Shown piece by piece: positions 2,860 through 59,875 of a stretch of DNA of 64,000 nucleotides. The first letter of the stretch is position 1. Every line of letters begins with the position of its first letter. The notes under the pieces are model-generated. The model made no database searches, was not told the DNA's origin, and saw only the letters and a program-made list of their open reading frames with translations. This stretch comes from Tubulanus polymorphus (lineage: Eukaryota; Nemertea; Palaeonemertea; Tubulaniformes; Tubulanidae). Made by a program: the position numbers and the translations under genes. Location of the stretch: NCBI RefSeq assembly GCF_964204645.1, contig NC_134032.1, forward strand, positions 13,572,275-13,636,274, read 5' to 3'.

Positions 2860-3876
2860 TCACTTTCCGGATAGACCGATCCAATATGGCGGAAAATAAT
2901 CCTCATGACTGACTTGTCGTGCCAGTGTCGAATTTTTGCGCGGCCAATCCTTGTAATATATAGTCGTTCCATTTGCTAACCAGGCCGCCCACCAACCGAA
3001 CGAACCTGTCGAAATGATCACGTGATCGCAGGATGACAATATAGCCAGATCTAAAGCCGGGTCTTTCGCTTTAGAAAAAACCACATTCACATTTTTATTG
3101 GGTACGTTTTTCTCGCACCACGGAATATCATCTGACGCAACAATAAACAGTACGTTTTCACCGTATAATGACGTCATACGGTCCATCGCATTTTTCATAT
3201 AGCTGACCGGGACTGTGACGTAGCCGAAATCAGATAAGTATTTTAACGTCATATCGCCGCGTCTTATATGTATGCCGATAGTCGTAATTTTGGCGCTAGT
3301 GAGCAATGAAAGATTGTATGCTCTACGCTCTATGAAATTTTCGGCGGCCATTTTTATGTGTTTTCGGAACGTAAATTGTTTACGAATTTCGTCTGTTTCA
3401 TTTTGAAAATATTTCCATGACTGTAAATAACCCCAGATACGGCTGGCGGACAAACCGGTGATGTTTAAATTGAGAAACCTGGGATCGAATCTACACGGAT
3501 CTTTTTCGTAATGCACAATTTTGATACTGTTTTCTTTGAGCGTAATAGAGGGCGCTGTCAATTCAAAAATCTTCGCCAATTTGAAATCTACAGGAATGAC
3601 CGGCATGGTGTCATAGTGTTTAGAAATAGCAAATAGCGCCGCGTATTGGGACATCAAGTTACCAATGCGACCCATAAACGAGCCGATCATAACCGGAAAT
3701 AGAATAGGCGGGAATTTTATCGCTTCCGGCTGGCACGGAGAACATGGTCGTGTAGATGTGCTGTAAACAGGTGTTGATTCCCGGCAGCGGCAGCGACAGT
3801 GTATTGCAGTAAATCCAGTAATTATTAAAACAACACTTGAACTAATTACGAAAACGATAAAACTAATTTTCCGCAT
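2860..3876 (-). CDS. Alpha-1,2-fucosyltransferase-like (GT11), copy B
   Basis: Complete single-exon gene of 338 aa, the usual size for animal GT11 enzymes. Predicted type II Golgi protein transferring fucose from GDP-fucose to glycan galactose. Residues 5-24 form the signal anchor. MGRIGNLMSQYAAL (69-82) is the family N-terminal motif, GYLQSWKYF (149-157) follows, HIRRGD (203-208) is the GDP-fucose binding signature, and STGSFGWWAAWL (289-300) is the conserved C-terminal motif. Several N-glycosylation sequons are present (for example NET near 159 and NST near 315). The ATG at 3876 is preferred over an open extension to 4002 because the paralogue at 1-882 starts at the matching codon and has a stop upstream. 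All key motifs are intact, so it is probably active. Linkage and acceptor specificity are inferred from family only. Confidence 0.88.
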   Translation of the reverse strand: MRKISFIVFVISSSVVLIITGFTAIHCRCRCRESTPVYSTSTRPCSPCQPEAIKFPPILFPVMIGSFMGRIGNLMSQYAALFAISKHYDTMPVIPVDFKLAKIFELTAPSITLKENSIKIVHYEKDPCRFDPRFLNLNITGLSASRIWGYLQSWKYFQNETDEIRKQFTFRKHIKMAAENFIERRAYNLSLLTSAKITTIGIHIRRGDMTLKYLSDFGYVTVPVSYMKNAMDRMTSLYGENVLFIVASDDIPWCEKNVPNKNVNVVFSKAKDPALDLAILSSCDHVIISTGSFGWWAAWLANGTTIYYKDWPRKNSTLARQVSHEDYFPPYWIGLSGK

Positions 3877-5029
3877 TTTTCGAATTGGTGAGATGATGAT
3901 TCGGGTTGTGGTCAGCAATAAGTCTCGTCCCCTGTAATGGTCAGAGTAATTGGTCGGCGGTTGGTCAGCGCGCGACGAGAATCTATAACTCAAAAAGCGC
4001 ACTTGTTTAGTACAAACCGATTAGGTTTTGGTTTACTTGGTGTTTTGGCCAGTGAAAGCGGTTTTTGCGATTTAAACGAATCGAAAGATTAAATATAGCT
4101 GCAAAGCAGCAATAACGGGCTTCTGCCTACGTAACTGGCTATTTTGAAGGAGTGGAACCTAGGGGTCAACACATAAGATCCATAAGGGCTACTATGTAAA
4201 AAGCAGCAGAAACCCTTATTATCAACGGTTTCGAGAGGTTTTGCGGATGGCTGCCACCTTGGTTGAGTCGGTTTAACGCAGCAAACCACTCCCTGGCGGA
4301 TTGATCTGTTTACGACGAAATGCCGTTTGAGCAATGGACTTCACAAATGCGACTTCAGTTAACCTTATCTTTCGGTTTGCTCTTAAAATAAGTTGGCCTC
4401 TGATCTGACAAGATATGTTGTCAAATCGTTGATTGAAATCATGACTGGGGCGTTTTCGAAGGTGTCTGAAAATGAGATATTTTATTTACCCTTTTAAATT
4501 CTGAATTAGGTTCCACATTTTGGCGGCTAGTCCCGGTTGCTTAGCTGTTTCGATTTTCTGTGTTCGGTTGACCACTTTAGTTTCGGTTTGTACAATGGAT
4601 GCTTCTGAGTAAGATACGAGAATTAATCGTTCGCAGTACCGGGTGCAAAAGAGCAACGATGTTTTCTTTACCATAGCGACGGCGATTGGTTTGCACACAG
4701 TTCGTTACGCAATCAATCCATGATTTTGAATAAGAGCGTTGCTCTTTTGGAAGCAAATACATGTAATAGCAGTTTAAAATTATGTGACAGTCGCGATAGA
4801 CCTATATACTTATACTCCTCGTTAGCGTGTATTTGAACCTGTGCGGCATCGTAAAAAATATGCCAAATACCCCCCTTAAGGTATTTGAACCCAGAAAGAT
4901 ACGGCATTAAGAGACTCTGTCACAATCATCCCAGAGACCGTTGCACAATCCAGCCCTTGTGCAGCTATCAACCTAATGCCTGCACGCACACCCTCATTAT
5001 CCCAGGCGTCGTCATCCCCTGTGGCACTA

Positions 5030-8611: not shown

Positions 8612-18815
<10,204 letters not shown>

Positions 18816-19791
18816 GACTGAGTGATAACCCTGACAAAAAAAAGAATTAGAAACAATTTTAAATTCATACATAGAGCTATAATTATATGATATTTGATCA
18901 ACCTTTTGTTTTTTTAAGCATTGGGCTTTTGTTTTCAGTTTTACTTTAATTTGTATTATTACACCTAGTTTGCGGTTTGTTGTATTCTACTAATTGTTTT
19001 CCTGTCTCTGTTTTAAATCACTTTCTGTTATTCAACCTTTCGCTGTTTGATTCTCATATCTTGTTTTTTACTTCTCTCCTCTCAGGTAATTTTCCTCAAA
19101 TGTTTTATGAAAATATATTGAACTGTCTGCATGTCAAAAGGGGCTGTAGCCAGGGGTGTTACTGTTAGGGGTTCTGAATCTGCTTGGTGCTGGGAGTAGA
19201 TACATGTTTTAACAATTTTTGCACCAACTAGTTCCAATTCTAAATTATATAGGCCCTATTCACAAAAGAAAGATCGAGGATTCTAAGTAAGGGTTAGCAA
19301 ATTCAATTTCACATATTGTTGTGTGTGCGTCTGTTCCCTTACGGCTTACAGTGGTGTTGTAAGTGCAGCGACTGCAGCGATGAAAGCCGCGGCAATAATT
19401 TACTGAATGACGTTTTTTTTTCTTTGAAAAAATTAAGCAAATTCGCCTGCCTAAAGCATTGAGGTTTCGGTTTAAGCTGCAGTACTCTGGCTGGATAAGT
19501 TTTTTGCACCACTCTGTATTGTCTTAAACGGGTGACCTTGTCTCCAGTAACCATCTCTTTTCTGCCTCGTTCATACTCCCATCAGCCCCGAATTTGAGAT
19601 ATGGCAAAAGAATAACATATTTCATAATGTGCGATGGTTTTTTAACTTACAGGTTGACTCTAACCGGGTTTAAATCGCGCTGAAATACCGAGCCAGACTT
19701 TACTTCCAGTTGTGTGCGTGATCGGACGACGATCACGATAAACCTGGCGCACTGTGCGTGATTGACTCGAGAAGTTATCCTACTCGCTTAC

Positions 19792-19860
19792 CAGTGTCGG
19801 TTTGGCTGACTGCGCATCGGACACGGTTCAGTGCCACATGCGGTCAGCAATCCAATATCC
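19792..19860 (-). promoter_or_regulatory. Possible noncoding first exon of NNT
   Basis: On the minus strand CACTG|GTAAGCG at 19792/19791 is a good donor. The NNT coding exon 1 has a matching acceptor (TTTTGTCAG at 18831) a few bases before its ATG, so a 5'UTR exon must lie upstream, and this is the best visible candidate. The transcription start is not determinable. Confidence 0.35.
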
Positions 19861-20328
19861 CAATGCATTATCATAAAAACCAAAAAAGGTACCTATGAAT
19901 AACGATACTGGGGTAAAAAAACATTTTTGCAACCATTCCTATGTGAATTAGAAGTGAGAAATGTCATACTTTTAATCATAGTTTTTTGATGATTTTTGCG
20001 GGTGCCCGGCCGCGTGTTGTGCCCCAGTGATCTCGCAACAAAAGTCAATCCATTATACGCCCATGAGGCGGCTTCGACTAACCAGCATGCAGAGTGACTC
20101 CATATTGTTACCTTATTTTTGTACCATATGACATTTCTTTTTTTTCTGTAATTTTATTCGTTCATCGAAATTGAGCAATCGATACAATTTTTCACTAGGG
20201 TCCGGGAATTTTGGTTTCGAATTCCGCGCGCATGCTGTACAAGTTCTCTACTGAACTCAGGAGTCGAACCCGCTCACGACCGGCGAATCTGTACAGCGCG
20301 TAGCAAAACTCAACCCTCTGTCTTCACG
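19793..20328. promoter_or_regulatory. Divergent promoter region between NNT and IDH
   Basis: Intergenic segment between the candidate first NNT exon (minus) and the IDH start codon (plus). It is richer in CG dinucleotides than the neighbouring introns. No TATA box is evident at a convincing position on either side. Any sharing of elements is inferred from layout only. Confidence 0.45.
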
Positions 20329-23300
20329 ATGGCTAGCAGTTCGGCACTTTGTTTTTCTCGATTTCTGGCTAAAAACAGCCGCAATCTAAGGAAGCTGGTC
20401 GCCCCGGCGTCGATTAATATCACTCAGAATGGATCGTGTAAGTATTTTATTTGCTCGTTTCGTAAATTCTCGTTAGAAACCGATTTTTGAACGCGGCAGT
20501 CTGGCAAACTAGTCTGCGCCTAAACCGTTTAGTTTTTAGAAAAGCTGAAAGCTCAACGATTTTTAATTTCGTTTACTTTGCCCATTTGCTGTTTTTTTCT
20601 GTTGTTCAGTAATGACGGATAGCTGTAGGTTTACAAAACGTTCACTTTGTCTTTGACCGGAGAAGGGAAGGAAAAGAGTTAGAGAATTAAATGCAAGACT
20701 AAATTCCCGTTATCAGAAAAATAAAAAAAGAATTTACTTTGGTGCATGTTCATTGCTGCTATGAACATACAATGAATATACCCCTGGTCTTCTTCAACAA
20801 TTCAATATGAAATCAAAGTAATTTACGAGTCTTTCTTTGAACTTCACGACAAAAAACTCATTCCTGCCACCAGCTGCCACATCGCAGTAATATAGAGGTT
20901 AGAGTTGTGGGCTGTGGTTCCAGCTGTTAGTACCAGGAATGGATACATCTGACGTAGATATTGCACCTGCCACCTACACTATACACGCACACTATAGATG
21001 TGACACTTCATTCATGAATATGATATTTGTTTGATTGGTAGCTGTAGATATCGTTATTGAAACATGTGGCATTGGAATAAAAGTTCCCAATCATTTGCGA
21101 TAAATGGTTGATTTTGTATGGGAATTTCAGGCATTTTCATCTGATCTGGAAATCATTGTACTGTATATTAAGATATGATGATTAATTCGGAGATTATTAA
21201 AATGTCATGTTAAATCACAGATTTTATCATTATAATCTTGTTTAGTTTGTCCAAAAATAGGTTTAATGATGTAAGATAAAGTTTGTGTCATTGAAGTAAA
21301 AGTATAGCGTATTTATGAGGGAATAGGTACATATTGTATAGATGGTAATTCTGGCTTTATTCTTCCTGGCAGATAAAATCGGGGAATTCCTACTTTTTTC
21401 TGAGATAATCAGGCAAATTTTAGTGTCTTGATATTTTTGCTGGCGATAAGTGGTGATAAGGAACCTCTTAGTCTTGATAAGAAACAAGCGCCATAGTGGA
21501 TATCTTATAATTCAATGAGGTTAATGGTCAGGCATTTATCAAAAGGAATTTTAGACTCCCTCTTATCTATAAGAACCCTGATTGTGATTAAGTCCTGCAC
21601 TTAATAGCTGACAAATTTCCAAATATTCCCCATGATAATTTTGTCCGCATACCTTATGAATTCAGGAAAAAGAATTTAAATTTTTGTTGGTCAGCGAGTG
21701 TGGCTCAGGTTTTGGCTAGAACATTAGAAAACCACGACTCAATAGGAAAACAGCAGCTGAAATGAATATTATCTGCTCTTCTAAAAATATCTATGAACAG
21801 CATTGACTGCAGTCTAGCTTCAGTACTACCGGCTGTAAGCGTTATATATATGTAAAAAACGACTTCGTAGATCTATTCATAATCTTCGGTTTGTTTTTGT
21901 GTTATCTTCGCTTGAGTTGTCCGTCTGCCCGGTTCATACCACCGGCAGACGATCATTTATAATCGCGCAACAATAAAAACCGGTAGACGCCGGATTTAAA
22001 CCGTTTTGATTGAATAATCCACGAAGTCGTCGAGATAAAAGAATTCTTACAGTCGCATTGTTTCGTACGACAAACCCCTTGATAGATATCTTTTATTCTT
22101 TCTGTCTGATTTCATATTCTCTGTGAAAGAAACTTGATATGAAATATGGCATTTTCATGGCTGACCTTTATCTATTCGTCTTTATGGAAAATCTTGTTAT
22201 TGCCCCCATAAAATTTTATAATGATATTCTTTAATTTCTCAGCTGGTTTATTGTGGTTTAGTTCCAGTCACCGCTCAGGCAAGGTGTCGAGGCCTGGATA
22301 GTGGTTGACTGATTGCCAAAATAAAACTCGAGATGATCTTGAGTTTAGGGGTTAATGCTGAAATTTCAATCTTTTTGAAATATTTTAACTTTCCGCTGAA
22401 GTTTAAATCAAACTCTGCCCTGATTGGAGTAGTGGATCCAAAAATTTTGTTTCTGGGTGACTCCATTTATATTTTTGAATATTCTGTCCTGATCTTGTGC
22501 CCCAGGGGGTTCTGCTCCACCCATAGAAAATTTTGAAAAATGTAGCTCTGGATGCGATGTGTTTGTGGTGTCTATCACACCTATGATTAGTATCAAAATG
22601 TAATGGCAAGAAACAGGGACCCAGTCTGTTAAGCCCTCCCCAGATTTGCTGTGAGTATCTCATAAGGTCTGACTGTTGAGATTATTTTAATGTTTTTTTG
22701 CTGTTGTTTGTTGATTTTATAGATTCGACACAGAAACGAATTAAGGTTGATAAACCGGTCGTTGAATTGGACGGAGATGAAATGACTCGAATCATCTGGG
22801 AAAAAATCAAAGAAAAGGTAAACAGTAAATTCTATACAGCCCTTTAACCTCCCCCTTAAACCTCTCTCCATTCCTTACCTCTCCTCACTTCTCTAACCTC
22901 CCATTCCCGACCTTGGACCGAGCTTCCTGTCTCTCCTATCACCCACCCTTGCCCCCTTTCTCACTCCCCAACTTTCTCACTGCCCACCTGCCAGCTCTTC
23001 CTTCCACATTGTCTTGTAAGATGAACAAAACTGGCAGGTGTGGTGGGTTTGAAAGTTTGTCAGAGACACTAAATCGAAACCAAATCGACTTATCAAATGA
23101 ATAGGGTTGATCCCTATTTTAAGATTAGAATAAAATCTCTTTTCTTTCTATTTTCACATCTTCTTTCTTCACCTCTTGATCTTCCATCTCCCTTCTCCCC
23201 CATTCTCCACTAGCCTCCCTCCCCAGTTCCTCCCTCTCCCACTCCCCAATTGTCTTCCCACCCTGTCTTGCAGCTAGAATAACATCTCAATCTCTCTCTC

Positions 23301-26300
23301 TGTGTTCTCTGTGTTTACAGTTGATATTGCCGTATTTGGATGTGGAGTGTTTATATTATGATCTGGGTTTACCGCATCGTGACGCGACCAACGATCAGGT
23401 TACGATCGACTCGGCTCACGCTATTCTCAAACACAACGTCGGTATCAAATGTGCAACGATTACCCCCGACGAACAGAGGGTCGAAGGTAAACTATCATCG
23501 TTAACTTAATCATGTCTGCCTCGGTGAATCTCCTTATGACATCGGAAAGAGTCAAAAATAATCTCAAATCTGTCAAATCCCGCTCGCATTCCGAGGTTGT
23601 TGAAATTGTTGAAAAAGTCCTTCTTAGTACTTCCTTTTACCCTGGCCTCACCGCTGGAAACCCTCTCACGGATTTGAATAGATACCCCTATGACATCATC
23701 AAATTGCTTTGTGACAATTCCAGAAATGATGTCCGACAGTCTCAAAAAATCCCCCTATGACGTCACAAATTCTCTTCTGATTTGATATGTAAGGTAGTAT
23801 GTCCTATTTCTAATCGAATTTTGATTAATTTGATGATGTCATTGGAGGAATTTATAGAGGTGGGCCATACCAGGATCTTTATATGGCAGAAATGATAAGA
23901 ATGTTGCAGACGATCCTGTTTTCTGTAAGTGACAGTGATTTCTGAGTTTTCACGCAAAATTTTGTTTTTTTTGTTTTTCAGAATTCAAACTGAAGCAGAT
24001 GTGGTTGAGCCCGAACGGTACGATCAGGAACATTCTCGGCGGAACCGTGTTCCGAGAGCCGATTATCTGTAAGAAAATTCCGCGATTGGTTCCCGGCTGG
24101 AAGGACGCGATCGTCATCGGTCGTCACGCCCACGGTGATCAGGTACGTCAGAGCAGACGACTTCAATCTCAACTATCAGCCACTGGTTACTGAGATGCTG
24201 TCCTCCATTTCTTCTTCATTTCGATGAAATTTGAATCAACCTTTCCTGATAAGTAAATTAATTTACAGTGAAATCTATACTATACACTTGTGAATGAAAA
24301 AGTCAATCTAAGATCTATTTTACTTGTTTGATGATTTTTGGTTTTCAAAACTTATAAGTTCAGTTCGAAGTTCATTGAAAATGAAAACATTTTCACTAAA
24401 AATTGCAAATTCAGTGTATTGTTGCGCCATCTGGTGTATGCTGCTTGTACTTCATTGGCAATTAACGAAACTTTGGTCTGTCACAACAATTGAAGATTTA
24501 GGAGTGATAATTTTGAACTTTCTTTGGTTTGAATATTTTTTGTTGAATTCCGGTGCGGTGTTGACCCTGTTTTTGTTTTGATTATTCAATGAGTGATGTA
24601 TTGTGTTTATTATTTCAGTATAAAGCCACTGATTTCGTCGTACCCGGAGCTGGTAAAGTTGAACTAGTTTACACTCCGGCCGGAGGAGAAAAAGTCACGC
24701 ACGAAGTTTACAATTTCAAAGATGGCGGTTGCGTAATGGGCATGTACAACACTGATGAGGTAATTCAATTAATTTAAAATTTTCTCAATCTGCTGCCCTG
24801 AAAACCAATTTTTGAAAGTGTGCCGATGGAATCTCTAATATATCTGGGATTTGTAGCTCATTTTCAATTAAAAATGTCTAAGATGAAGCACTGAACATGT
24901 GTGAGTGTGAACGATCAGTTTTTGAAAGCGCAATCATAGATTTTCAAATGTCATTTAAACTTTAAGGACTCGGACTCTAAGCATTCGACACCAACTCGGG
25001 TTTGAACTTTTTACAGCGTTGTAGGAATTTGTATTTTGATATTTCAGTCGATTCGAGGTTTCGCGGAAAGTTGTTTCCAGATGGCGCTGATGAAGAAATG
25101 GCCGCTGTATTTGAGCACGAAGAACACGATCCTGAAACGTTACGACGGACGATTCAAAGATATCTTCAACGAAATCTATGAAAGGTGACTTGACTGGGAG
25201 ACAAAACTAGCAAGAGAATTTTGTTCTTGTTATTAAATCAAGGTTCTTTTACAGATCAGGGATATCTGACTTGGTGATTCTTGCTCATGACAAGTGGCAC
25301 AATGAACCTCTTGATAGAAACAGCCCCCTCTGAGGAGGGTTGGGGAGAATAGGAGAATTTTGGATTCTCTGATCCATAAGAATCCAACTGCTGGTTGCAT
25401 GGTCATGGCTTAGACTTAAGGCCAGTCTTAGACCAACTTGCTTCTAGAGCCACTCTAACAACTTAAGACCACTCTTAATATTTTAGTCACGACTGTGCAA
25501 CTGGCCCTTGGGAACAGCCCCCAATGAGAATAAACTCATTATCTAATCAAAGAATCTTTTGGTCAAGGGTGAGCGAAATATCAGCAAGGAATTTCTGAAT
25601 CCCTGATCTGTTCAAACCTTGTTAATTGAAGATAAAGTCAAGACGACGCAATCAATTATCATTTTCTTTTTCTAAACAGTAAATATAAACAGAAGATCGA
25701 GGAAGCAGGGATCTGGTACGAGCATCGATTAATCGATGATATGGTCGCGCAGGCCCTGAAATCTAGCGGAGAGTTTATCTGGGCGTGTAAAAACTACGAC
25801 GGCGATGTACAGTCGGACGTCGTCGCTCAGGGTATGCATCTAACCCCCACCCCGCTCAGTAATGTTCCCATGAATCCCCCTATTAATTATATCATGAATT
25901 GATATTGTTGAAACGAGTTGGTTCCACAAGACAGGTGCTATATATTTAGATGAATAGATAGTAAATTTGATGTCTTGATATTCGCGAAGATGAAAAGTTT
26001 GATTTGATTTTCTGACAACAGATTTTTGATTTTGATATTTGTATGGGTCTGCTGAATTGAGCATGTTGGTTAGTAGTATTGCTGACCCCTGGTATGAGGG
26101 TATAGGTCAGTTAATAGCCGAGGCCCGCAAGTACCTACGCCCGGGCGGGAGGGCGATAATCGGTTTCAGTTGCGCCATTGGAGTTATCGCCTACATATTG
26201 CGCGCTTCAAGATCCCCTTACAACATCGTTTCTTCATTAGCCATACTAGAATTCAAAAGAACCAGTTCCAAACAATGATTTCGATAAATGTTATTCTTGC

Positions 26301-27311
26301 AGGTTATGGATCTCTCGGTCTGATGACTAGTGTACTGGTCTGTCCTGACGGTAAGACTGTAGAATCGGAGGCGGCTCACGGCACGGTCACGCGTCATTAC
26401 CGTGAACACCAGAAAGGTAATCCGACGAGCACGAACCCGGTGGCCAGCATCTACGCGTGGACTCGCGGGTTAGAACACCGAGCGCGGCTCGACGGAAATA
26501 AAGATCTGGAAAAATTCTGTCATGATCTGGAAAGAGCCTGTGTCGATACTGTAGACTCGGGACTGATGACTAAAGATCTGGCTGGCTGCATTTATGGCCT
26601 GAAAAAGTAAGTTATACCTGCATTTTTTGTGAAATAATTTCAGTTCTATGTGTACTGTTTGACCTAGTTCAGGGTGCTTAAGTTTCAGATCAGAAAAAAA
26701 AAAATTCAGGGAGCTCTAGATTTATTCTTTCCTTCAGGGAATTCTGACACGTTTCTTGGAAATCTGAAAATTTGGATTTTTAGGGTCTTGTTGTTCTTGC
26801 TAGTGTCGAGTGGCATAAGGAACCTCTATTGGAACAAGAAACCTGCTGTTTCTATAAAAACCAGTGCCCACAGAAGATATCTTACACAATCTGATCAGGG
26901 AATTTGAATTTTTGATATCTTGTTGTTCCTGCCGGTGACGAGTGGCACAAGGAACCTCTTGATAAAAACAGCCCTCACTGAGGATATCTTTAATTTAATC
27001 TGGGAATTTGGATTTTGGTGTCTTGTTGTTCATGCTGGTGACAAGTCGTCAAGGAACCTCTTGATAGGGGACAGCCCCCACTTAGGATATCTTTAATTTA
27101 ATCAGGAAACTTTTGGCTTGGTCACAGGTCAGGGATATAATTGTTTGAAACAATGCGACTACGCATGAATATTTTGATAAAATTTCATTATTTTAAATGT
27201 TGTTGCAAAATCGATGTTTTTATTTCCAGTTTGAAACCCGACCAATATCTGTACACGATGGACTTCCTCGAGGCGATCGCGAAAACTCTCGAGAAAAGTC
27301 TACACAAATAA
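20329..27311 (+). CDS. IDH2: Isocitrate dehydrogenase [NADP], mitochondrial-type, 9 exons
   Basis: Oxidises isocitrate to 2-oxoglutarate and makes NADPH. Exons: 20329-20437, 22723-22817, 23321-23486, 23982-24142, 24619-24759, 25048-25184, 25680-25831, 26303-26606, 27230-27311; 448 aa, complete (human IDH2 452). Residues 1-39 are rich in Ser/Arg/Lys/Leu with no acidic residue, as in a matrix presequence, and YSTQKRIKV marks the mature start. Seen: [32 protein letters not shown] (substrate loop Arg), [15 protein letters not shown] (Arg equivalent to human IDH2 R172), [27 protein letters not shown] (metal Asp) and [12 protein letters not shown] (NADP). The body has IDH1-like phrases such as PGAGKVE and WPLYLSTKN, so it may descend from a gene serving both compartments. 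The C-terminus SLHK is not a peroxisomal signal. The 2.3-kb intron 1 could hide an alternative first exon, but none is evident. AATAAA lies at 27490. Confidence 0.95.
21855..22034. mobile_element. Palindromic element in IDH intron 1
   Basis: Outer inverted repeat ACGACTTCGT (21859-21868) / ACGAAGTCGT (22021-22030), with an inner hairpin GTCTGCC/GGCAGAC and further CCGGT/ACCGG pairs. MITE-like or a structured RNA segment; class unknown. Confidence 0.5.
22840..23270 (+). repeat. Polypyrimidine-rich intron 2 of IDH
   Basis: Two C/T-rich blocks (about 22840-23005 and 23140-23270) on the sense strand. The polarity relative to transcription is the same as in the NNT introns. Confidence 0.7.
25391..25507. 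mobile_element. Palindromic element, TTAAGAC-rich subfamily, copy 2
   Basis: CTGGTTGCATGGTCATGGCT at the left and AGTCACGACTGTGCAACTGG at the right are imperfect inverted repeats. Related to 15081-15217. In IDH intron 6. Confidence 0.6.
26735..27115 (+). repeat. ~120-bp degenerate tandem repeat, three units, in IDH intron 8
   Basis: Each unit has TCTTGTTGTTC, TGCTGGTGACAAGTGGC-like, AAGGAACCTCTTGATA, ACAGCCC and GGATATCTT. Single related units occur at 21400-21515 and 25245-25345, so the family is concentrated in this one gene. Confidence 0.7.
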
Positions 27312-41620: not shown

Positions 41621-44600
41621 TCAGCATTCGTTGAACCATCGTTTAGCTTTAGGTGCCGGACCGGCGGTTGTCCCGTAGCCTCGTTGGTATTGCCAGTACT
41701 GACCGCCCTTGAAGAAGTAGAGGTAACCATTGACGTTGACGACGGCGTCCAGGTTTCCGGGCATACCCGGAAAATGCCGATCTATCTGCTGTTTCGGGTA
41801 TCGTTCAACGCTCAGATAATATTCGTTGAAATAGTAAAATATATCGTCCTGAAAACGAGAAATAGATTTTGAATTGTCGAGTCCGGTGTTAAAGTTCCCG
41901 AACAATAGGCTAGCTACGCATAGTGGTCACAATACCGGGAATTACATTTAAGACTTCTTGGTAAATTTGTCTTTGGTGCGACCTTTGTTCTTCGTAACTA
42001 CTAAATAACTGAACTCAATTTTCTAAATCGAGACTTCTTGGTTGAAATTTAGATTTCTTGGTTGATATGTCTTTGGTAGGACCTTTGTTCTTTTGGTAAA
42101 TGGGTTTTACTGAAATACTGAACTTGATTTTCCACTACATACTGTACTAAATTTTCGAAACGTATATACTTTGTTTTCTGATCCGCCCCATAAAAGTCTT
42201 TGACCATTTACAATAGAATTTTCCTTCCATTTAAAAAAAGTAGATAATTATTATTTACCTCGAAGAGATAGATTCGGCCGAATCGATCAATCATGGAGGC
42301 GCTTGGGCGTCTCGGGTAAACAGTGTCCAGACTGCGATCTACGGGGAATCCCCATTCTTTCTCGTATTTGCCGTATGTGTATGTATATCGATAAATATCC
42401 GTATCTGTTGAAACGAGAGAAAAACAACACATAAATAATAGATAGGAATGACATGGCACCATCCAGAGTACTAAACGGTATTTTCGATTCAAAACAATGG
42501 ATTTAATTGTATATTTTCCCCGACATTTCGATCTGTGAATTAATTATGGAAATATTGCGTGCAGGATACAAAATTCAGTCTTAAACATTGTATTCATATT
42601 GCGATTGGGAGGGTCGGTACTGTGATAAAGTCAGTGAAATCCCTAATCTCCCAAACAGAGATATCGTCATGGGAAATGACGAAAAGATTTTTCGAATATC
42701 CTTCGCAAAATTGCTCCAAAGATTTCTCACCAAAAACTCTTGAGAGTCTTTCATTTGCATATGTTTTCTTTAATCTTTAAAACCGAATTGCATTTAAGAA
42801 TTAAGCATTTTCGTGAGGCGGCGGTCCGATAGATGTTCACACAGAATCGATCAATTTAAAATCGTACCTTTGAAAATGTAAAATTTGCGAGTTCGGAAAG
42901 AATAGGAGGCGCCACTGACGACGTTCGGGGCACCAGGGAAGACGTCACTGATTGGTTTCGGGTATCCAGGTAGCAGTCCACCACTAGTGTACGTAGCGTA
43001 CACCCATCCGTTGTAGAATATATACATATGAGTATCAGGCCCTAAATGAAAATATATGAACGAATAACATTATTAATGATATTTCAGTTATCAAAGATAT
43101 CGTCAGAACATTGTTCAGAGTTTAAACGGACAGGGGCCATGAGTCGCTGAAAGGATGTAGACCATTGCATGCTTAGGACCCAGTTCTGGGATAACCTATT
43201 CCACACATCAGGTATTTATTTGAATATTCGAGGTAAGATTTACAAGTTTTAGGGCCAATTTTCACGAAAAAGGTGAACTCGTATTTTTTTTGGTTAACTT
43301 CATGTTTTCAACCAGCACAGCAATACAAAGTACAAGTTTAAGCTTAAACTTGTTCATGAAACTGGACCCTACACGTTATGAGAAGCAGTTTGGCCGAATG
43401 TTTAAATCATTGGTCAGCTATAGCAGGCCCCATGTATTCGAATCCTACAGAAGACATCTTTTTTGCTAATGCGTCTTGAGTAGCGGTTCAGTTTTGTTAG
43501 GGATTTCTTTTTAGTACCGGTAGTTGAAGAAAAATTCCAGACCCAGTTCCACTGCTTTGAGTTAAGACAACTCAAGTTACAATTAGTTCATTTTGAATGA
43601 GTGAACTCAATCTTAACTCAGTTTACTCTGCTCACAACCGTGGAAACTGGATCATACGCTGTATAAGCCCCTGAAACACCTACCAAAAGCAACGGCATCG
43701 AAGTCCATCTTACAATGATCAGGCGCGTATGGTGATATAGTTGGTCTGGTCGGTGGTTTAGTCGGTTCAGTCGGTTTAGTCGGTTTGGTCGGTTTGGTTT
43801 TAGGTGGTTTCGCGGTAGATTTGACTGGAGGTTTTGTCGGCGTTGACTTCGTCGTAGTAGGTTTAACTGGGGGTCGAGTTGCAGTACCTAATAAATGAAA
43901 ACAATTAATATGAAATTAGTTATCTACGAAACGCCCAAATACTTAAAAAATAGTTGATTCGATTGGCGATGGCAGAGCGGTATTCTCGAGCTGGACTCGT
44001 CAATCAGTGTTTGTAGGGTTTATGGTTTATGCGTTCAGAGCTCCTCGTGGTTATTCTGTGGGTCAGTACCCTCGATAGGAAAAACGTTGCATAAGACAAT
44101 TGAATACAAAAGATAACTAAGACGACACAATTCTATCTTCAATTCAGTTTTGAAAATGGCTTATAGAATTGAGTCAAAACGTCGTTAGTTTTTCCTTATT
44201 TTAGGTTTTTAGATTTTTAAGCCACATCAGCCGTACGAGAGGTACAGCTAGGGCTGAGGGGCGAGGACTGAGGGGCGAGGACTGAGGGGCTCAGCGAGTT
44301 GAGGAAGTATTTCACGTAAGGATAGAACGAACGATTATTTACCGTATAGATGTTGAATTCCCAGAATGTCATCAGTCGTCAGTTTAAAGTTAGGGATATA
44401 GCCTTGATAAAACGGAGCCATCAACGCTTTCGGGGCGGAAGAATGCGCCAGACCTAAAGCGTGTCCGATTTCATGAGCGGCAACGATTTTCAGGTTGACA
44501 CCGCGGTCCTCGCCGTCTGTCCAGTCCTCCGCCTCGTCGAAATGTGTCTCGCCGCTTTCCGGGAAGAATGCGTGGGCCAGAACGGTGCCTGGAATATCGA

Positions 44601-47422
44601 AATAGATATTTATTTATATACAGAAAAATTATATTCGAAGTAGAACTTTAATGGCGTATGATTTTTTCCTAAATTGCATGCATCATTTAAGGCAAACCTT
44701 AAGACCCTGTTAAACTAAACATTCTACACCCTAGTGGTGGTCATATTGAACCAATTAATAACCAACCATTCTGTCCCCTAGTGGTGGTTATTTGAAACAA
44801 TTAATGACCGACCATTCTAGTTGGTGGTTGTCTTGATGGATAAGATCACCTCAATTTGAATCAATTAATAACCAAATGCCGCGTGGTTGTTGAAAAAGGA
44901 CTCACAATGCCCGTCCCCTAGCGGCGGACTCGCGACTCACCTGGACCGTCGAATCTGTTGCCGTACCCGTCGCCGTGGTCGATATGAGGTCGAGCAAATT
45001 TAATCATGATGTCCGCTTTTCCGCCGGCGATTTCGTGGAATGTTAAATTAGCGACGTCGCTCCAGAATTTAAACGATTCGTAAAATATACGTCTGAAAAT
45101 AAAGTGAGAAAAAGTTCAGAATTTCTATTCGAGGTTCTTTTCATTTTTCAACAACGGCATTTTACGAGCAAACGAACCTTTGAGAGCCGCGGTCTAAGTC
45201 TGGAGAATCGTTGGTCATTCGCCAAGTGAGAACGTTCTTCTTCCATTTAAATCCTATGAAAGTAACATATAGAGAATAAATGTACAACTGATTTAATTAT
45301 TTTTTGGTAAAATGTATCGAAGATTTAAACAATTGTATGTTGCAATATTGACCGTCGATGATATGAAATCGAACAGTCGGAACGGAAAAGGGTTCGAAAA
45401 GGTATCCTTGGGTTTACTCAAGGTAACCTCGAGGACTTGTTTCGATCCTTTTCCGAGTGTTGAATCCGATATCAACGTGACACCACGGACACATCCTCCC
45501 CGGCAGGGATTCGAACGTGATGCCATCAGGTGGGAATCCCTGCCGAGGGAGGATGACGGACATAGAGTGTTTCATCAATGCACTCTGATAGGAGGCTGTT
45601 GTCTACCAGTCGTTTCTTTTGAAGGGTGAAGATCCAGTTCCACAGATTTCTCAGTTGAACCCAGGGTTTGAATTAGTCAATTGCAAATGATTCAACTTAA
45701 TTGGCAAATTACGAACAAAAACGGTGAGACTGGGTCCTATGTTCGGCAGTATACGAAATGTTCAATTTCGACTCTATTTTCGTCTTACCTGGTACTTGAT
45801 AAGCCACGGGTAACGATGGGTCGTTTGGAGGGAATTTATCTTTCACACCGCACCGTGGCGCTAACATCTTTCGCTTGGTGTTCGGATCGAGGAAACCAGT
45901 TTCGGGAAGTTGAGCCATTCGCTGGAACTCTCTGAATTTTGAAATGATGCAGAATTTTAGGTAAAATAATAGAATTTTCATTAAAAGAAAAAAATCTGCA
46001 GACACTGTGGTAAGTGATGCTGCATAAACCGACCCTGGTAAGTGGTTATTTTTGTCTAATTTCCACAGATTGTAGATTGTGCAGAATTAGCATGAACTCT
46101 GGGAAGTGATGTTATGAACGGTTCTGAAGAAACCAACCCTGTTAAGTGGTACTCACTTAATGGCTTCCATTCTGACAACGTTACTGTCCGGAGGTGGTCC
46201 GCCTGTTCCGTTCTTTACGGCACTCCATTCTAAATATCCATACTTCTCCAGAAATTTCTAGAAGGAACAATAAAACACGCTATATACAAATTAGCAGATC
46301 ATCGTCTTTAGAGAGAGAGTCTGAAACTCGCGACTTTTTCATTTTAATTTTTGATTTGATAAATAAACTAGGTTTTTAATCTTCTGAATTTTAATGTAAT
46401 GGGTTTTAATCAGCTATTCTCAAAGTTTGAGTGCACGGACTATTCTACTGTTTTCTTCTAGATTGCTATTTTATGTCAATTATATCATGGTATGTTACGA
46501 TTAGGTCGGTGAAAATTGAAACAAAAATATTTACACGGAAATATGGCGGGTTATTAAAAAGATTTACTACTCGTGTACTATACAAATACATAATTTTCAT
46601 TTTTTGTTTTTACGACGTGGGGGGCGCCAGTTTGGTGAGAGAGGACCGGTCTGCATTGACGCGAGGAACACTGAACGACCGCGGAAAGAACCTACAGTAT
46701 GTACAAAATAAATATCCCTTCGACCTGACCCGAAAACATGCAAAACAATCACTAAATATTCGCGATTAATGTATGAACCTATTATCTATTCTATAATAAT
46801 TGTGGATGATGAATATGTATTGAATGTAATTGGGCAAGTGATAGACATAAGAAATTATATTGCGGATAATTTGTCGGTGTTTTTGCGGTCGTTAATGTAA
46901 TTTGTCGCTGCATCGCTTATTGAATACAAACACGTTAACATAACCGACGAAAACGACGCTACTGTGGCAATCGAGGATTCCGTACGTGTTCGTTACTGGT
47001 GAGGATCCACCAGGTGCGCTAGTTGTGCATTAATGATATCAATTACTCTGGCAATAGTACTGATACTGCTTTGGGGCAATCGGGGATCCACCAGGTGCGC
47101 TAGTGCGCAGAAAGAAGAACACCAATTACTTTGATGATAGATGATTCTACTTTTGTGGCAAGTGGGGATCCGCCAGGTGCGCTAGCATGCCGCAATTTCT
47201 CCTACCGAACATTGCCGATGATTAACGACGATTACTTACATCTGGGTCGACATCGTCAAACGCCTGTCGTTTGTGTCTGAGTTTTATCTGATCCTCTTGA
47301 TTGTTGGTTGTAATTTCGACGTTGTATTTTCGCGCTTGTCGATGTGGAAATGCGGAGGTCAAGGTGACACTCAATACTACGAAGAATATGGCCGCCACGC
47401 CGAAAAATCCCCGTTTCAGCAT
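41621..47422 (-). CDS. Secreted matrix metalloproteinase with hemopexin domain, 10 exons
   Basis: Zinc endopeptidase of the extracellular matrix. Exons in transcript order: 47422-47240, 46257-46157, 45931-45789, 45253-45178, 45092-44941, 44588-44343, 43887-43684, 43041-42868, 42404-42259, 41848-41621; 550 aa, all junctions in frame. Signal peptide ~1-24, a dibasic site RHKR (49-52), then the prodomain [11 protein letters not shown] with cysteine switch PRCGVKD (C122). The catalytic domain begins near [12 protein letters not shown]. The zinc site is [11 protein letters not shown] (257-267) with Met-turn ALMAP (M275). A Thr/Lys/Pro hinge spans ~301-356. Four hemopexin-like blades follow, closed by C359 and the last residue C550. 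No transmembrane or GPI tail, so probably soluble. [10 protein letters not shown] after the Met-turn recalls MMP19-like enzymes. An acceptor just before the ATG implies an upstream 5'UTR exon, perhaps ending at 48443. Confidence 0.94.
43384..43458 (+). mobile_element. tRNA-derived SINE-like fragment
   Basis: TTTGGCCGAATG (43389-43400) fits an A box, and TATTCGAATCC (43435-43445) fits a B box. Lies in a metalloproteinase intron, antisense. Confidence 0.45.
43539..43653. mobile_element. Palindromic MITE-like element (CAGTTCCACAGT family)
   Basis: AGACCCAGTTCCACTGC at the left and CCGTGGAAACTGGATC at the right are inverted. The interior is GAGTTAA/TTAACTC. In a metalloproteinase intron. Confidence 0.65.
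44717..44890. repeat. ~60-bp degenerate tandem repeat in a metalloproteinase intron
   Basis: Three units with ACCATTCT, CTAGTGGTGGT, and CAATTAATAACCAA in order; a fourth is decayed. Confidence 0.65.
45493..45554. repeat. Near-perfect 20-bp-arm hairpin
   Basis: ATCCTCCCCGGCAGGGATTC (45493-45512) and GAATCCCTGCCGAGGGAGGAT (45534-45554, minus one base) are reverse complements with a single indel. The loop is 21 bp. The left arm contains the reverse of a B box (GGGATTCGAAC), linking it to the SINE-like piece at 12762-12850. Confidence 0.8.
45631..45737. mobile_element. Palindromic MITE-like element (CAGTTCCACAGT family)
   Basis: GATCCAGTTCCACAG at the left and GAGACTGGGTCC at the right. More decayed than the other copies. 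In a metalloproteinase intron. Confidence 0.5.
46920..47190. repeat. ~80-bp imperfect tandem repeat, three units, in metalloproteinase intron 1
   Basis: GGATCCACCAGGTGCGCTAG recurs near 47003, 47084 and 47166 (the last with one change), each preceded by a diverged ACTTTGGCAAT-like segment. Confidence 0.8.
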
Positions 47423-49516: not shown

Positions 49517-49599
49517 ACTTTCGCAAAAATTACTTAGATACAGCAAAATTACGCATGCGCAGTGGAGAATCGCGGATCGATTATTATAAAATCAACCAA

Positions 49600-50745
49600 T
49601 TGGACTGATTTCGGAGTAAAATATGTGGCAGTCGAGGAATTGGACTGGTTTCGGAGTAAAATATATGGCAGTCGAGGAATTAGACTGGTTTCGGAGTAAA
49701 GTGTGTGGCAATCGAGGAATTAGACTGGTTTCGGAGTAAAATACGTGGCAGTCGAGGAATTAGACTGGTTTCGGAGTAGAATGTGGCTATGGAGGAATTA
49801 GACTGGTTTCGGAGTAAAATATATGGCAGTCGAGGAATTAGACTGGTTTCGGAGTAAAATATGTGGCTATGGAGGAATTAGACTGGTTTCGGAGTAGAAT
49901 GTGGCTATGGAGGAATTAGACTGGTTTCGGAGTAAAATATGTGGCAGTCGAGGAATAAGACTGGTTTCGGAGTAAAATATGTGGCTATGGAGGAATTAGA
50001 CTGGTTTCGGAGTAAAATATGTGGCAGTCGAGGAATTAGACTGGTTTCGGAGTAGAATGTGGCTATGGAGGAATTAGACTGGTTTCGGAGTAGAATGTGG
50101 CTATGGAGGAATTAGACTGGTTTCGGAGTAAAATATATGGCAGTCGAGGAATTAGACTGGTTTCGGAGTAAAATATGTGGCAGTCGAGGAATTAGACTGG
50201 TTTCGGAGTAGAATGTGGCTATGGAGGAATTAGACTGGTTTCGGAGTAGAATGTGGCTATGGAGGAATTAGACTGGTTTCGGAGTAAAATATATGGCAGT
50301 CGAGGAATTAGACTGGTTTCGGAGTAAAATATGTGGCTATGGAGGAATTAGACTGGTTCCAGAGTAAAATGTGTGGCAGTCGAGGAATTAGACTGGTTTC
50401 GGAGTAAAATGTGTGGCAGTCGAGGAATTAGACTGGTTTCGGAGTAAAATATGTGGCAGTCGAGGAATTAGACTGGTTTCGGAGTAGAATGTGGCTATGG
50501 AGGAATTAGACTGGTTCCAGAGTAAAATATGTGGCAGTCGAGGAATTAGACTGGTTTCGGATTAGACTGGTTCCAGAGTAAAATGTGTGGCAGTCGAGGA
50601 ATTAGACTGGATTCGGAGTTGAATGCGTGGCTATGGAGGAATTAGACTGGTTTCGGAGTAAAATATATGGCAGTCGAGGAATTAGATTGGATTCGGAGTA
50701 GAATGTGTGGCAATCGAGGAATTGGACGAGTTTCGGAGTTGGCGG
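49600..50745. repeat. 40/38-bp minisatellite, about 29 units
   Basis: Unit GAATTAGACTGGTTTCGGAG followed by TAAAATATGTGGCAGTCGAG (40 bp), with a 38-bp variant (TAGAATGTGGCTATGGAG). The two types alternate in blocks, with a few TTCCAGAG variants toward the right end. Units are contiguous with no spacers. Confidence 0.97.
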
Positions 50746-55727: not shown

Positions 55728-56405
55728 TAAAAAAGTAATGTAAAGGGTAGATAGGCGGCCGGCCGGGTCAACATTTAAGCTCAGCAGAGCGGAGAAACAA
55801 GGTATCAATTTTTTTTAGCCTAGAAATCAATAGGAAGAATTGTCAATTATTCTACTCACATTCTGCAGCACTGGATGTCAAGTTCATTAGACATTATCTC
55901 ACTGGGGATCCTGCAGAACTTGGGCGTTGATTTCACCAGCAGTTGTTTCACTAGGAGTAGTTTCACTTCTGGAGCACTCTCGATTTCATTTGTAGTGTCT
56001 GTTGATGATTCAACTCAAAGCGTTTCTATTATTTAATTGAAATCAAAAGTGGCAGTCAAAAAACGGACAATTAAATAATCGATCAAACAAAACTTTTGAA
56101 AATTTGATTTACTTACTTGGAACAAGTGCAATAGATATTGAATGAATGGTCTGTTTGTGATGAGATGGTAACAGGAGATACGCCCATATTTAATATCTCT
56201 GAAGAATAAAAAAGTAAATGAAAAACTCATTTCAAAATGTGTGATTGATAATTTCTTAAAAACAAAATCGAGTTTCAGTCTGAATACATACCACATATAT
56301 TTCTATCATAATCAACGATTGACTGAAAGTGTCAAGGGCTGCTGCTGTTGAGGCTGTTCATTACATGGTGAATCAACCTCTCACATGGTATTGGACTGAC
56401 TCACT

Positions 56406-57200
56406 GGAGGTAGATTCTGCAGCACTTTCAAGTCAAGTTCACCAGACAGTGTCTCACTGGGGATAGATTCTGAGCACTTTGAAGTCAATTTCACCAGACT
56501 GTGTCTCACTGGGGATAGATTCGGCAGCACTTTTAAGTCAATTTCACCCGACAGTTTCCCACTGAGGGTAGATTATGCAGTACTTTGAAGTCAAGTTCAC
56601 AACACAGTGTCTCACTGGGGATGGATTCTGCAGCACTTTGAAGTCAATTTCACCAGACAGTTTCCCACTGAGGGTAGATTCTGCAGTACTTTGAAGTCAA
56701 GTTCACCACACAGTGTCTCACTGGGGATGGATTCTGCAGCTCTTTGAAGTCAATTTCACCAGACTGTGTCTCACTGAGGATAAATTCTGCAGTACCTTGA
56801 TGTCAAATTCACCAGACAGTGTCTCACTTGGGGTAGATTCTGCAGCACTTTGAAGTCAAGTTCACCAGGCAGTTTCTCACTGGGGGTAGATTCTGCAGCA
56901 CTTTCAAGTCAAGTTCATCAGGCAGTGTCTCACTGGGGATAGATTCTGCAGCACAATGAAGTCAAGTTCACCAGCCAGTGTCTCACTGGTGATAGATTCT
57001 GCATTTCTTTGAAGTCAATTTAACCAGACAGTCTCTCACTGGGGATAGATTCAACAGCACTTTGAAGTCAAGTTCACCAATGTCTCAGTTGGGATATATT
57101 TTGCAGTACTTTGAAGTCAAGTTCACCACACAGTGTCTCACTGGGGAGAGATTCTGCAGCACTTTGAAGTCAAGTTCACCAGATAATGTCTCACTAGGGG
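56406..57200 (-). repeat. 53-bp minisatellite, about 15 units
   Basis: Unit GGATAGATTCTGCAGCACTT plus TGAAGTCAATTTCACCAGACTGTGTCTCACTGG. At 53 bp the frame is not kept between units, so it is not a coding repeat. Single diverged units lie at 52100, 55862, 59925, 60380, 60550, 60700, 61500, 62440 and 63710, inside the larger repeat family, so the array seems amplified from it. Confidence 0.93.
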
Positions 57201-57204
57201 TAGA

Positions 57205-58815
57205 TTTCTGACAGACGTTGGGAGGGACAGTCAAGGGTTTGATTAACGGATGTCGGGAGGTACAGTTGAGGGTTTGATGAACGGATATCGGGAGGGACAG
57301 TCGAGGGTTTGATGTACTGATGTCGGGAGGTACAGTCGAGGGTTTGATTAACGGATGTCGGGAGGTACAGTGGATGGTTTGATGTATGGATGTCAGGAGG
57401 TACAGTCGAGGGTTTGAACGGGTTTCGAGAGGTTGTCATGGGTTTGATGTACGGATGTCGGGAGGTGCAGTCGAGGGTTTGATGTACAGATGCCGGGAGG
57501 TACAGTCGAGGGTTTGGTGAACAGATGTCGGGAGGTACAGTCGAGGGTTTGGTGAACGGATGTCGGGAGGTATAGTCAAGGGTTTGATGTACTGAGGTCG
57601 GGAGGTACAGTCGAGGGTTTGAACGGGTTTCGAGAGGTTGTCATGGGTTTGATGTACGTATGTCGGGAGGTACAGTCGAGTGTTTGATGAACGGATGTCG
57701 GGAGGTACTGTCGAGGGTTTGATGTACGGATGTCGGGAGGAAGTCGGGGGTTTGATGAACGGATGTCAGGAGGTAGAGTCGGGGGTTTGATGAACGGATG
57801 TCGGGAGGTACAGTCGAGGGTTTGGTGCACTGATGTCGGGAGGTACAGTCGAGGGTTTAATGTATGGATGTCAGGATGTACAGTCGAGGGTTTAATGTAT
57901 GGATGTCGGGATGTACAGTCGAGAGTTTGATGTACTGATGTCGGGAGGTACAGTCGAGGGTTTGATGAACGGATGTCGGGAGGTGCAGTCGAGGGTTTGA
58001 TGTACGGATGTCGCGAGGCGCAGTCGAGGGTTTGATGAACAGATGTCGGGAGGTACAGTCGAGGGTTTGATGTACTGATGTCGGGAGGTTCAGTCGAGGG
58101 TTTGACGTAAGGATGTCGGGAGGTACAGTCGAGGGTTTGACGTAGGGATGTCGGAGGTTCAGTCGAGGGTTTGATGAAGGGATGTCGGAGGCACAGTCGG
58201 GGGTTTGAACGGGTTTCGAGAGGTACAGTCGAGGGTTTGATGTACTGATGTCGGGAGGTACAGTCGAGGGTTTGATGAACGGATGTCGGGAGGTGCAGTC
58301 GAGGGTTTGATGTACGGATGTCGCGAGGCGCAGTCGAGGGTTTGATGAACAGATGTCGGGAGGTACAGTCGAGGGTTTGATGTACTGATGTCGGGAGGTT
58401 CAGTCGAGGGTTTGACGTAAGGATGTCGGGAGGTACAGTCGAGGGTTTGACGTAGGGATGTCGGAGGTTCAGTCGAGGGTTTGATGAAGGGATGTCGGAG
58501 GCACAGTCGGGGGTTTGAACGGGTTTCGAGAGGTACAGTCGAGGGTTTGATGTACAGAGGTCGGGAGGTAAAGTCGAGGGTTTGATGTACGGATGTCAGG
58601 AGGTGCAGTCAAGGGTTTGATGTACTGATGTCGGGAGGTACAGTCGAGGGTTTGATGTATGGATGTCGGGAGGTACAGTCGAGGGTTTGATGTATGGATG
58701 TCGGGAGGTACAGTCGAGGGTTTGATGTATGGATGTCGGGAGGTTCAGTCGAGGGTTTGATGTACGGATGTCGGGAGGTACAGGCGAGGGTTTGAATGGG
58801 TTTCGAGAGGTTGTC
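57205..58815. repeat. 35-bp minisatellite with an internal 310-bp duplication
   Basis: Unit GTCGGGAGGTACAGTCGAGG plus GTTTGATGTACGGAT. About 45 units with variants (GAACGGGTTTCGAGAGG blocks). The segment ~57925-58234 is repeated at ~58235-58544 with a constant 310-bp offset and no mismatch noticed. Confidence 0.95.
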
Positions 58816-59154: not shown

Positions 59155-59875
59155 CAGTTGAAGTCAAGGTGGGAATATGGGATGTCAAGGGGCGTGGTAC
59201 AGGTTGAAGTCGAGGTGGGATGAGGGGATGTCGAGGGGCGTGGTACAGGTTGAAGTCAATGTGGGATGAGGGGATGTCGAGGGGCGTGGTACAGGTTGAA
59301 GTCAATGTGGGATGAGGGGATGTTGAGGGGTGTCGTACAGGTTTAAAGGAGGGGATATCAAGGGGCTTGGGATAGGTTGAAGTCAAGGTGGGATGAGGGG
59401 ATGTCGAGGGGTGTGGTACAGGTTGAAGTCGAGGTGGGGGGGGGATGTCGAGGGGTGTGGTACAGGTTGAAGTCGAGGTGGGATGAGGGGATGTCGAGGG
59501 GCGTGGTACAGGTTGAAGTCAATGTGGGATGAGGGGATGTTGAGGGGTGTCGTACAGGTTTAAAGAAGGGGATATCAAGGGGCTTGGTATAGGTTGAAGT
59601 CAAGGTCGGATGAGGGGATGTCGAGGGGTGTGGTACAGGTTGAAGTCAAGGTGGGATGAGGGGATGTCGAGGGGCGTGGTACAGGTTGAAGTCAAGGTGG
59701 AGGGATGTCGAGGGGTGTGGTACAGGTTGAAGTCGAGGTGGGGGGGATGTCGAGGGGTGTGGTACAGGTTGAAGTCAAGGTGGGGGATGTCGAGGGGTGT
59801 GGTACAGGTTGAAGTCGAGGTGGGGGATGTCGAGGGGTGTGGTACAGAAGTCAAAGAGAGGGGTTGCAGGGGGTT
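59155..59875. repeat. 46-bp minisatellite, about 16 units
   Basis: Unit GGATGAGGGGATGTCGAGGG plus GCGTGGTACAGGTTGAAGTCAAGGTG. Some units have lost GATGAGG. A variant unit (GATATCAAGGGGCTTGG) occurs twice. Confidence 0.95.

Follow-up and report, generated by a model that had tools for sequence, protein, structure and literature searches.

The stretch analysed here, referred to below as the window, is 64 kb in length and lies on contig C8 (16.7 Mb) of an assembly of 268 Mb. A search of the assembly for COX1 gave no match, and hence no mitochondrial DNA to use; annelid linker and molluscan haemocyanin families gave no match either, although their controls were equally silent. The window contains NNT on the minus strand and, adjacent to it on the plus strand, a gene for an NADP-isocitrate dehydrogenase of the IDH2 type, with their 5' ends facing and 1513 bp separating their ATGs. 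The two genes are as follows.

8612..18815, minus strand: NNT coding region (spliced alignment to mammalian NNT, with a corrected exon joint; Pfam; PDB comparison; genome copy search)
20329..27311, plus strand: IDH2-type mitochondrial NADP-isocitrate dehydrogenase (spliced alignment, with a corrected exon 2; PDB comparison; Pfam)

Mammalian NNT and IDH2 served as guides for the spliced alignments; what identifies the two genes is their matches in Pfam and PDB. NNT has 16 coding exons and encodes about 1069 aa, from an ATG at 18815-18813 to a TAA stop at 8614-8612. Its exons, searched as single ORFs, match the Pfam families PF05222 (3.2e-44) and PF02233 (3.9e-26), and the best match of the first ~390 aa is ovine mitochondrial NNT (PDB 6que, 3.8e-145); the query used for PDB stopped at the joint 15612/15015, before this was corrected, which should not affect the ranking. 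The joint from 15612 to 15015 was set by hand, and alternatives differing by a few residues are possible there. The protein thus has fused AlaDh/PNT and PNTB domains and an N-terminal leader, and its reading frame is intact when spliced. Matches to PNTB across the 268-Mb genome are confined to this gene, which is therefore present as a single copy.

It is worth adding that one NNT intron carries, immediately after the exon, a 24-bp minisatellite (16095-16733, about 27 copies, 94% matches), which can be read on the minus strand as an open frame of somewhat over 200 codons. Viral contigs were also scanned for eukaryotic NNT, and four pntA-like loci were found. The one that was inspected, at 959-1492 of a phage contig from IMG/VR (L020), is a bacterial pntA frame cut short at about 170 codons, with genes for phage lysis next to it, which suggests a prophage inserted within or next to pntA.

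The IDH2-type gene has 9 exons encoding 448 aa, with its ATG at 20329-20331 and its stop at 27311, and is intact once spliced. The preliminary description had called this enzyme mitochondrial in type, and the comparison with PDB bears this out: the protein scores 707 bits against mitochondrial IDH2 and 665 bits against cytosolic IDH1, the query having had three surplus residues at the exon 2 joint, which should leave the ranking unaffected. The N-terminus, rich in Ser, Arg and Lys, is a plausible mitochondrial leader. Hence the protein is nearer to IDH2 than to IDH1, has a leader at its N-terminus, and is encoded by an intact ORF. The sole other NADP-IDH found in the assembly, on C11, is IDH1-like. 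The aligner had placed a tiny exon 2 at 20931-20953; the acceptor at 22723 was preferred to it, so that exon 2 is 22723-22817.

Elsewhere in the window there is a single-exon ORF of 386 aa for a glycosyltransferase of family 11 (fucosyltransferase-like; 2863-4020, minus strand), past the 3' end of NNT. Downstream of IDH2 there is a matrix metalloproteinase gene (41624-46086, minus strand) with peptidoglycan-binding-like, Peptidase_M10 and hemopexin matches. Four minisatellite arrays, at 49598-50739, 56400-57206, 57220-58795 and 59157-59847, have units of 40, 53, 35 and 46 bp respectively, and the arrays at 49-51 kb and 57-60 kb overlap with very strong GC skew (0.4-0.6).

NNT and IDH2 are neighbouring protein genes that point away from each other, and the arrangement proposed earlier, head to head with some 1.5 kb between start codons, is real: both genes are intact, and positions 18815 (minus strand) and 20329 (plus strand) are each precisely the A of an initiating ATG. 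The ORFs that lie within the gap are all short and have no assigned family. The features identified in and around the gap are as follows; a slash marks the splice junction.

18816..18830, minus strand: 5' end of the NNT exon that carries the ATG, with the splice acceptor ctaattcttttttttgtcag/GG just before it, score 6.3
18871..19035, no strand assigned: repeat in the presumed NNT 5'UTR intron (genome DNA search and BLAST)
19347..19455 (3' limit approximate), plus strand: MITE-like fragment in the presumed NNT 5'UTR intron (genome DNA search and BLAST)
19456..20328, no strand assigned: candidate divergent promoter region (CpG profile and genome DNA searches)
19651, minus strand: second candidate donor for the NNT 5'UTR exon, CAACCT/gtaagtta, score 3.4
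19792, minus strand: best candidate donor for an NNT 5'UTR exon, GACACTG/gtaagcga, score 5.1

The acceptor that stands 15 nt ahead of the NNT ATG is strong, its score of 6.3 lying near the top of the range for real acceptors of the two genes (-4.3 to 6.5). A strong acceptor at this place implies a noncoding first exon farther upstream, and it is likely that NNT has one. The donor at 19792 has the highest score on the minus strand of the gap (5.1) and that at 19651 scores 3.4, real donors ranging from -0.1 to 8.9; either of them would bring the transcription starts of the two genes well under 1 kb apart. The preliminary description had suggested that the first exons might be only about 0.5 kb apart if its candidate NNT 5'UTR exon at 19792 was real. 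The distance agrees with what we find, in that 19792 is the best donor and lies 537 nt from the IDH ATG, while the first exon itself stays a prediction. The two donors differ in what they imply for translation. An exon ending at 19792 would contain upstream ATGs, some with ORFs that extend across the NNT start in a different frame, in weak context, whereas with an exon ending at 19651 every ORF from an upstream ATG terminates ahead of the NNT start.

The sequence between the genes falls into two parts, and both repeats are on the side of the presumed intron. For the repeat at 18871-19035 one further copy was detected, on C4, about 87% identical. The fragment at 19347-19455 is a truncated copy of a high-copy, MITE-like element of about 200 bp with hAT-like CAGTGGCG termini, for which 289 candidates include at least 38 copies that were scored, at 82-95% identity; L015 and L016 contain it nearly complete, with the ends CAGTGGYGTTGGAAG...CTTCCAACGCGCCTG. 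By contrast, the remainder of the gap, 19456-20328, is single copy in its own genome, and an origin of the central region from an inverted repeat or MITE is rejected for that reason. CpG is sparse at 18.8-19.2 kb and denser over two stretches, 19.6-19.9 kb and 20.1-20.6 kb, with a trough between them; the observed/expected ratio reaches 1.65, the mean of the window being 1.03. A TATA match was sought in 19456-20328 and none was found. The segment is therefore unique, CpG-rich and TATA-poor, as expected between the members of a divergent pair. Taken together, the CpG profile, the uniqueness, and the NNT acceptor and donors would suit one divergent promoter region of some 0.5-0.9 kb containing two core promoters. 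If the predicted 5'UTR exon is real, the layout agrees with what is commonly meant by a bidirectional promoter pair.

Such pairs are common in animals. Genes in pairs with starts less than 1 kb apart make up 11.35% of genes in human, 17.87% in C. elegans and 32.17% in Drosophila (PMC3403606). Paired genes usually have no common function (PMC3403606, PMC3815023), and divergent pairs are enriched for housekeeping and oxidative-phosphorylation genes (PMC3403606). The window has roughly four Pfam-recognised genes per 64 kb, a density compatible with a divergent-pair rate in or below the 11-32% range. As for function, NNT and the NADP-linked and NAD-linked isocitrate dehydrogenases (IDH2 and IDH3) form a substrate cycle, according to PMC3363418 and to Sazanov and Jackson (1994) as cited there, and the functional coupling that had been asserted for NNT and IDH2 is well founded. 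Literature searches for the NNT-IDH2 gene pair gave no description of it, in keeping with the earlier statement that no description of the pairing as a unit was known.

The adjacency of NNT and IDH2 is thus a further example of a familiar divergent-pair arrangement, and we consider it probable, at about 0.6, that the two genes are no more than an ordinary divergent pair with an ordinary divergent promoter region, in which the functional match is coincidental. On this reading two intact and broadly needed mitochondrial genes would start from a unique intergenic stretch at about 19.5-20.33 kb, most likely with a separate TATA-less core promoter for each. The first exon of NNT would be short and noncoding, with its donor at 19792 or 19651 joined to the acceptor at 18830. 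Transcription of IDH2 would begin at most about 130 nt from its ATG, and the two starts would then be roughly 0.3-0.6 kb apart. Starts so close together would probably have open chromatin in common, and perhaps some activator sites. Most simply, the partnership of the two enzymes in one pathway would be a fortunate neighbourhood and not a selected regulatory unit. Against this, chance would bring two matrix NADPH enzymes together less often than it would produce just any divergent pair, and there are two competing NNT donors, with upstream ATGs in the exon ending at 19792. The functional match is indeed unusual, a random neighbour being seldom so closely related in function, but it was spotted afterwards among many possible pairings. 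Co-regulation of the two genes and an effect of neighbourhood cannot be told apart from the data at hand.

The chief alternative is that the arrangement is a selected unit, a bidirectional promoter with common activator sites, such as NRF1-like or antioxidant-response elements, that keeps NNT and IDH2 in step. This we regard as rather unlikely. Its attraction lies in the substrate cycle described above, and in a number of motifs in the gap, of which two are placed close to the predicted starts.

19811..19817, plus strand: NRF1-like core TGCGCAT, next to the candidate first exon of NNT (a weak lead)
20228..20235, plus strand: NRF1-like core GCGCATGC, some 100 nt upstream of the IDH2 ATG (a weak lead)

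The NRF1 half-site core GCGCAT occurs 12 times in the 64 kb, and two of these are within 19700-20328, where 0.12 would be expected, one by each predicted start. Position 19807 has an antioxidant-response-like core, TGACNNNGCA, and position 19533 the core AAGGTCA. Roughly in the middle of the gap, a perfect 12-nt inverted pair, AGAAATGTCATA, is found at 19957-19968 and 20127-20138. A precedent for shared control exists in C. elegans, where in the pairs mtl-2/T08G5.1 and cdr-1/F35E8.10 one high-zinc enhancer between the head-to-head genes drives both (PMC12239621). However, all of these motifs were picked post hoc, after the sequence had been viewed, and they serve as hypotheses only. No full NRF1 consensus is present, the TGACNNNGCA core lacks the flanking purine, and the 12-nt pair, which resembles a mirror-symmetric element, is dismissed as evidence, since 25 of 141 windows of the same size (18%) contain one. 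Moreover, in human RPE cells a knock-down of Nrf2 reduced IDH2 and left NNT protein unchanged (PMC8373343), so that joint control by Nrf2 is not favoured in mammals.

The fuller form of this idea is a conserved, co-regulated pair of matrix-NADPH genes in this lineage, using NRF1-like or antioxidant sites in a bidirectional promoter of 0.5 kb, and we hold it to be unlikely. Were it true, this animal would offer a rare instance of two non-paralogous enzymes from a single metabolic cycle being kept head to head. If the pair were both conserved and co-expressed, the capacity of the two NADPH-producing arms of the matrix would be fixed by a single promoter, and deletion of a single element would be a clean probe of how tightly NNT and IDH2 need to be balanced. 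In human the two genes are unlinked, at 5p12 and 15q26, and any conserved pairing would consequently be limited to other lineages. If this is mere neighbourhood, which we think likelier, we have one more divergent gene pair.

It is quite unlikely that the two promoters are independent, lying close together but uncoupled by insulation or distance, with NNT starting in the repeat-bearing interval at 18.83-19.65 kb or from some other exon that was not predicted. The repeats are there, together with weak acceptor signals at 19126 and 19255, and the donor at 19792 is only middling in score; but CpG content and uniqueness favour 19.6-20.3 kb, and few acceptors of the two genes are as strong as that at 18830. 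Finally, it is highly improbable that this acceptor takes a trans-spliced leader, with no local first exon at all: a strong acceptor 15 nt before an ATG does resemble a trans-splice site too, but there are plausible cis donors upstream of NNT, and spliced-leader trans-splicing is restricted to certain animal lineages, which counts against it here.

The ordinary divergent pair, which remains our preferred reading, can be set beside several known systems. In the substrate cycle of NNT, IDH2 and IDH3 the two enzymes of the window are two arms, although the cycle is a biochemical coupling and the accounts of it drawn on here describe it without genomic linkage. The C. elegans pairs mtl-2/T08G5.1 and cdr-1/F35E8.10 likewise have regulatory sites between the start codons, as the NNT-IDH2 gap has candidate ones; there it was deletion that proved the zinc enhancer to be shared (PMC12239621). 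With the divergent protein-gene pairs of animals in general (<1 kb), NNT-IDH2 has in common a short, CpG-containing, TATA-poor region and opposite starts; it differs in that its partners are functionally related, and in that its ATGs are 1.5 kb apart and its starts are only predicted. Head-to-head pairs of the COL4A1/COL4A2 type are paralogues held together across animals, and their partners, like NNT and IDH2, serve one system, the difference being that NNT and IDH2 are unrelated.
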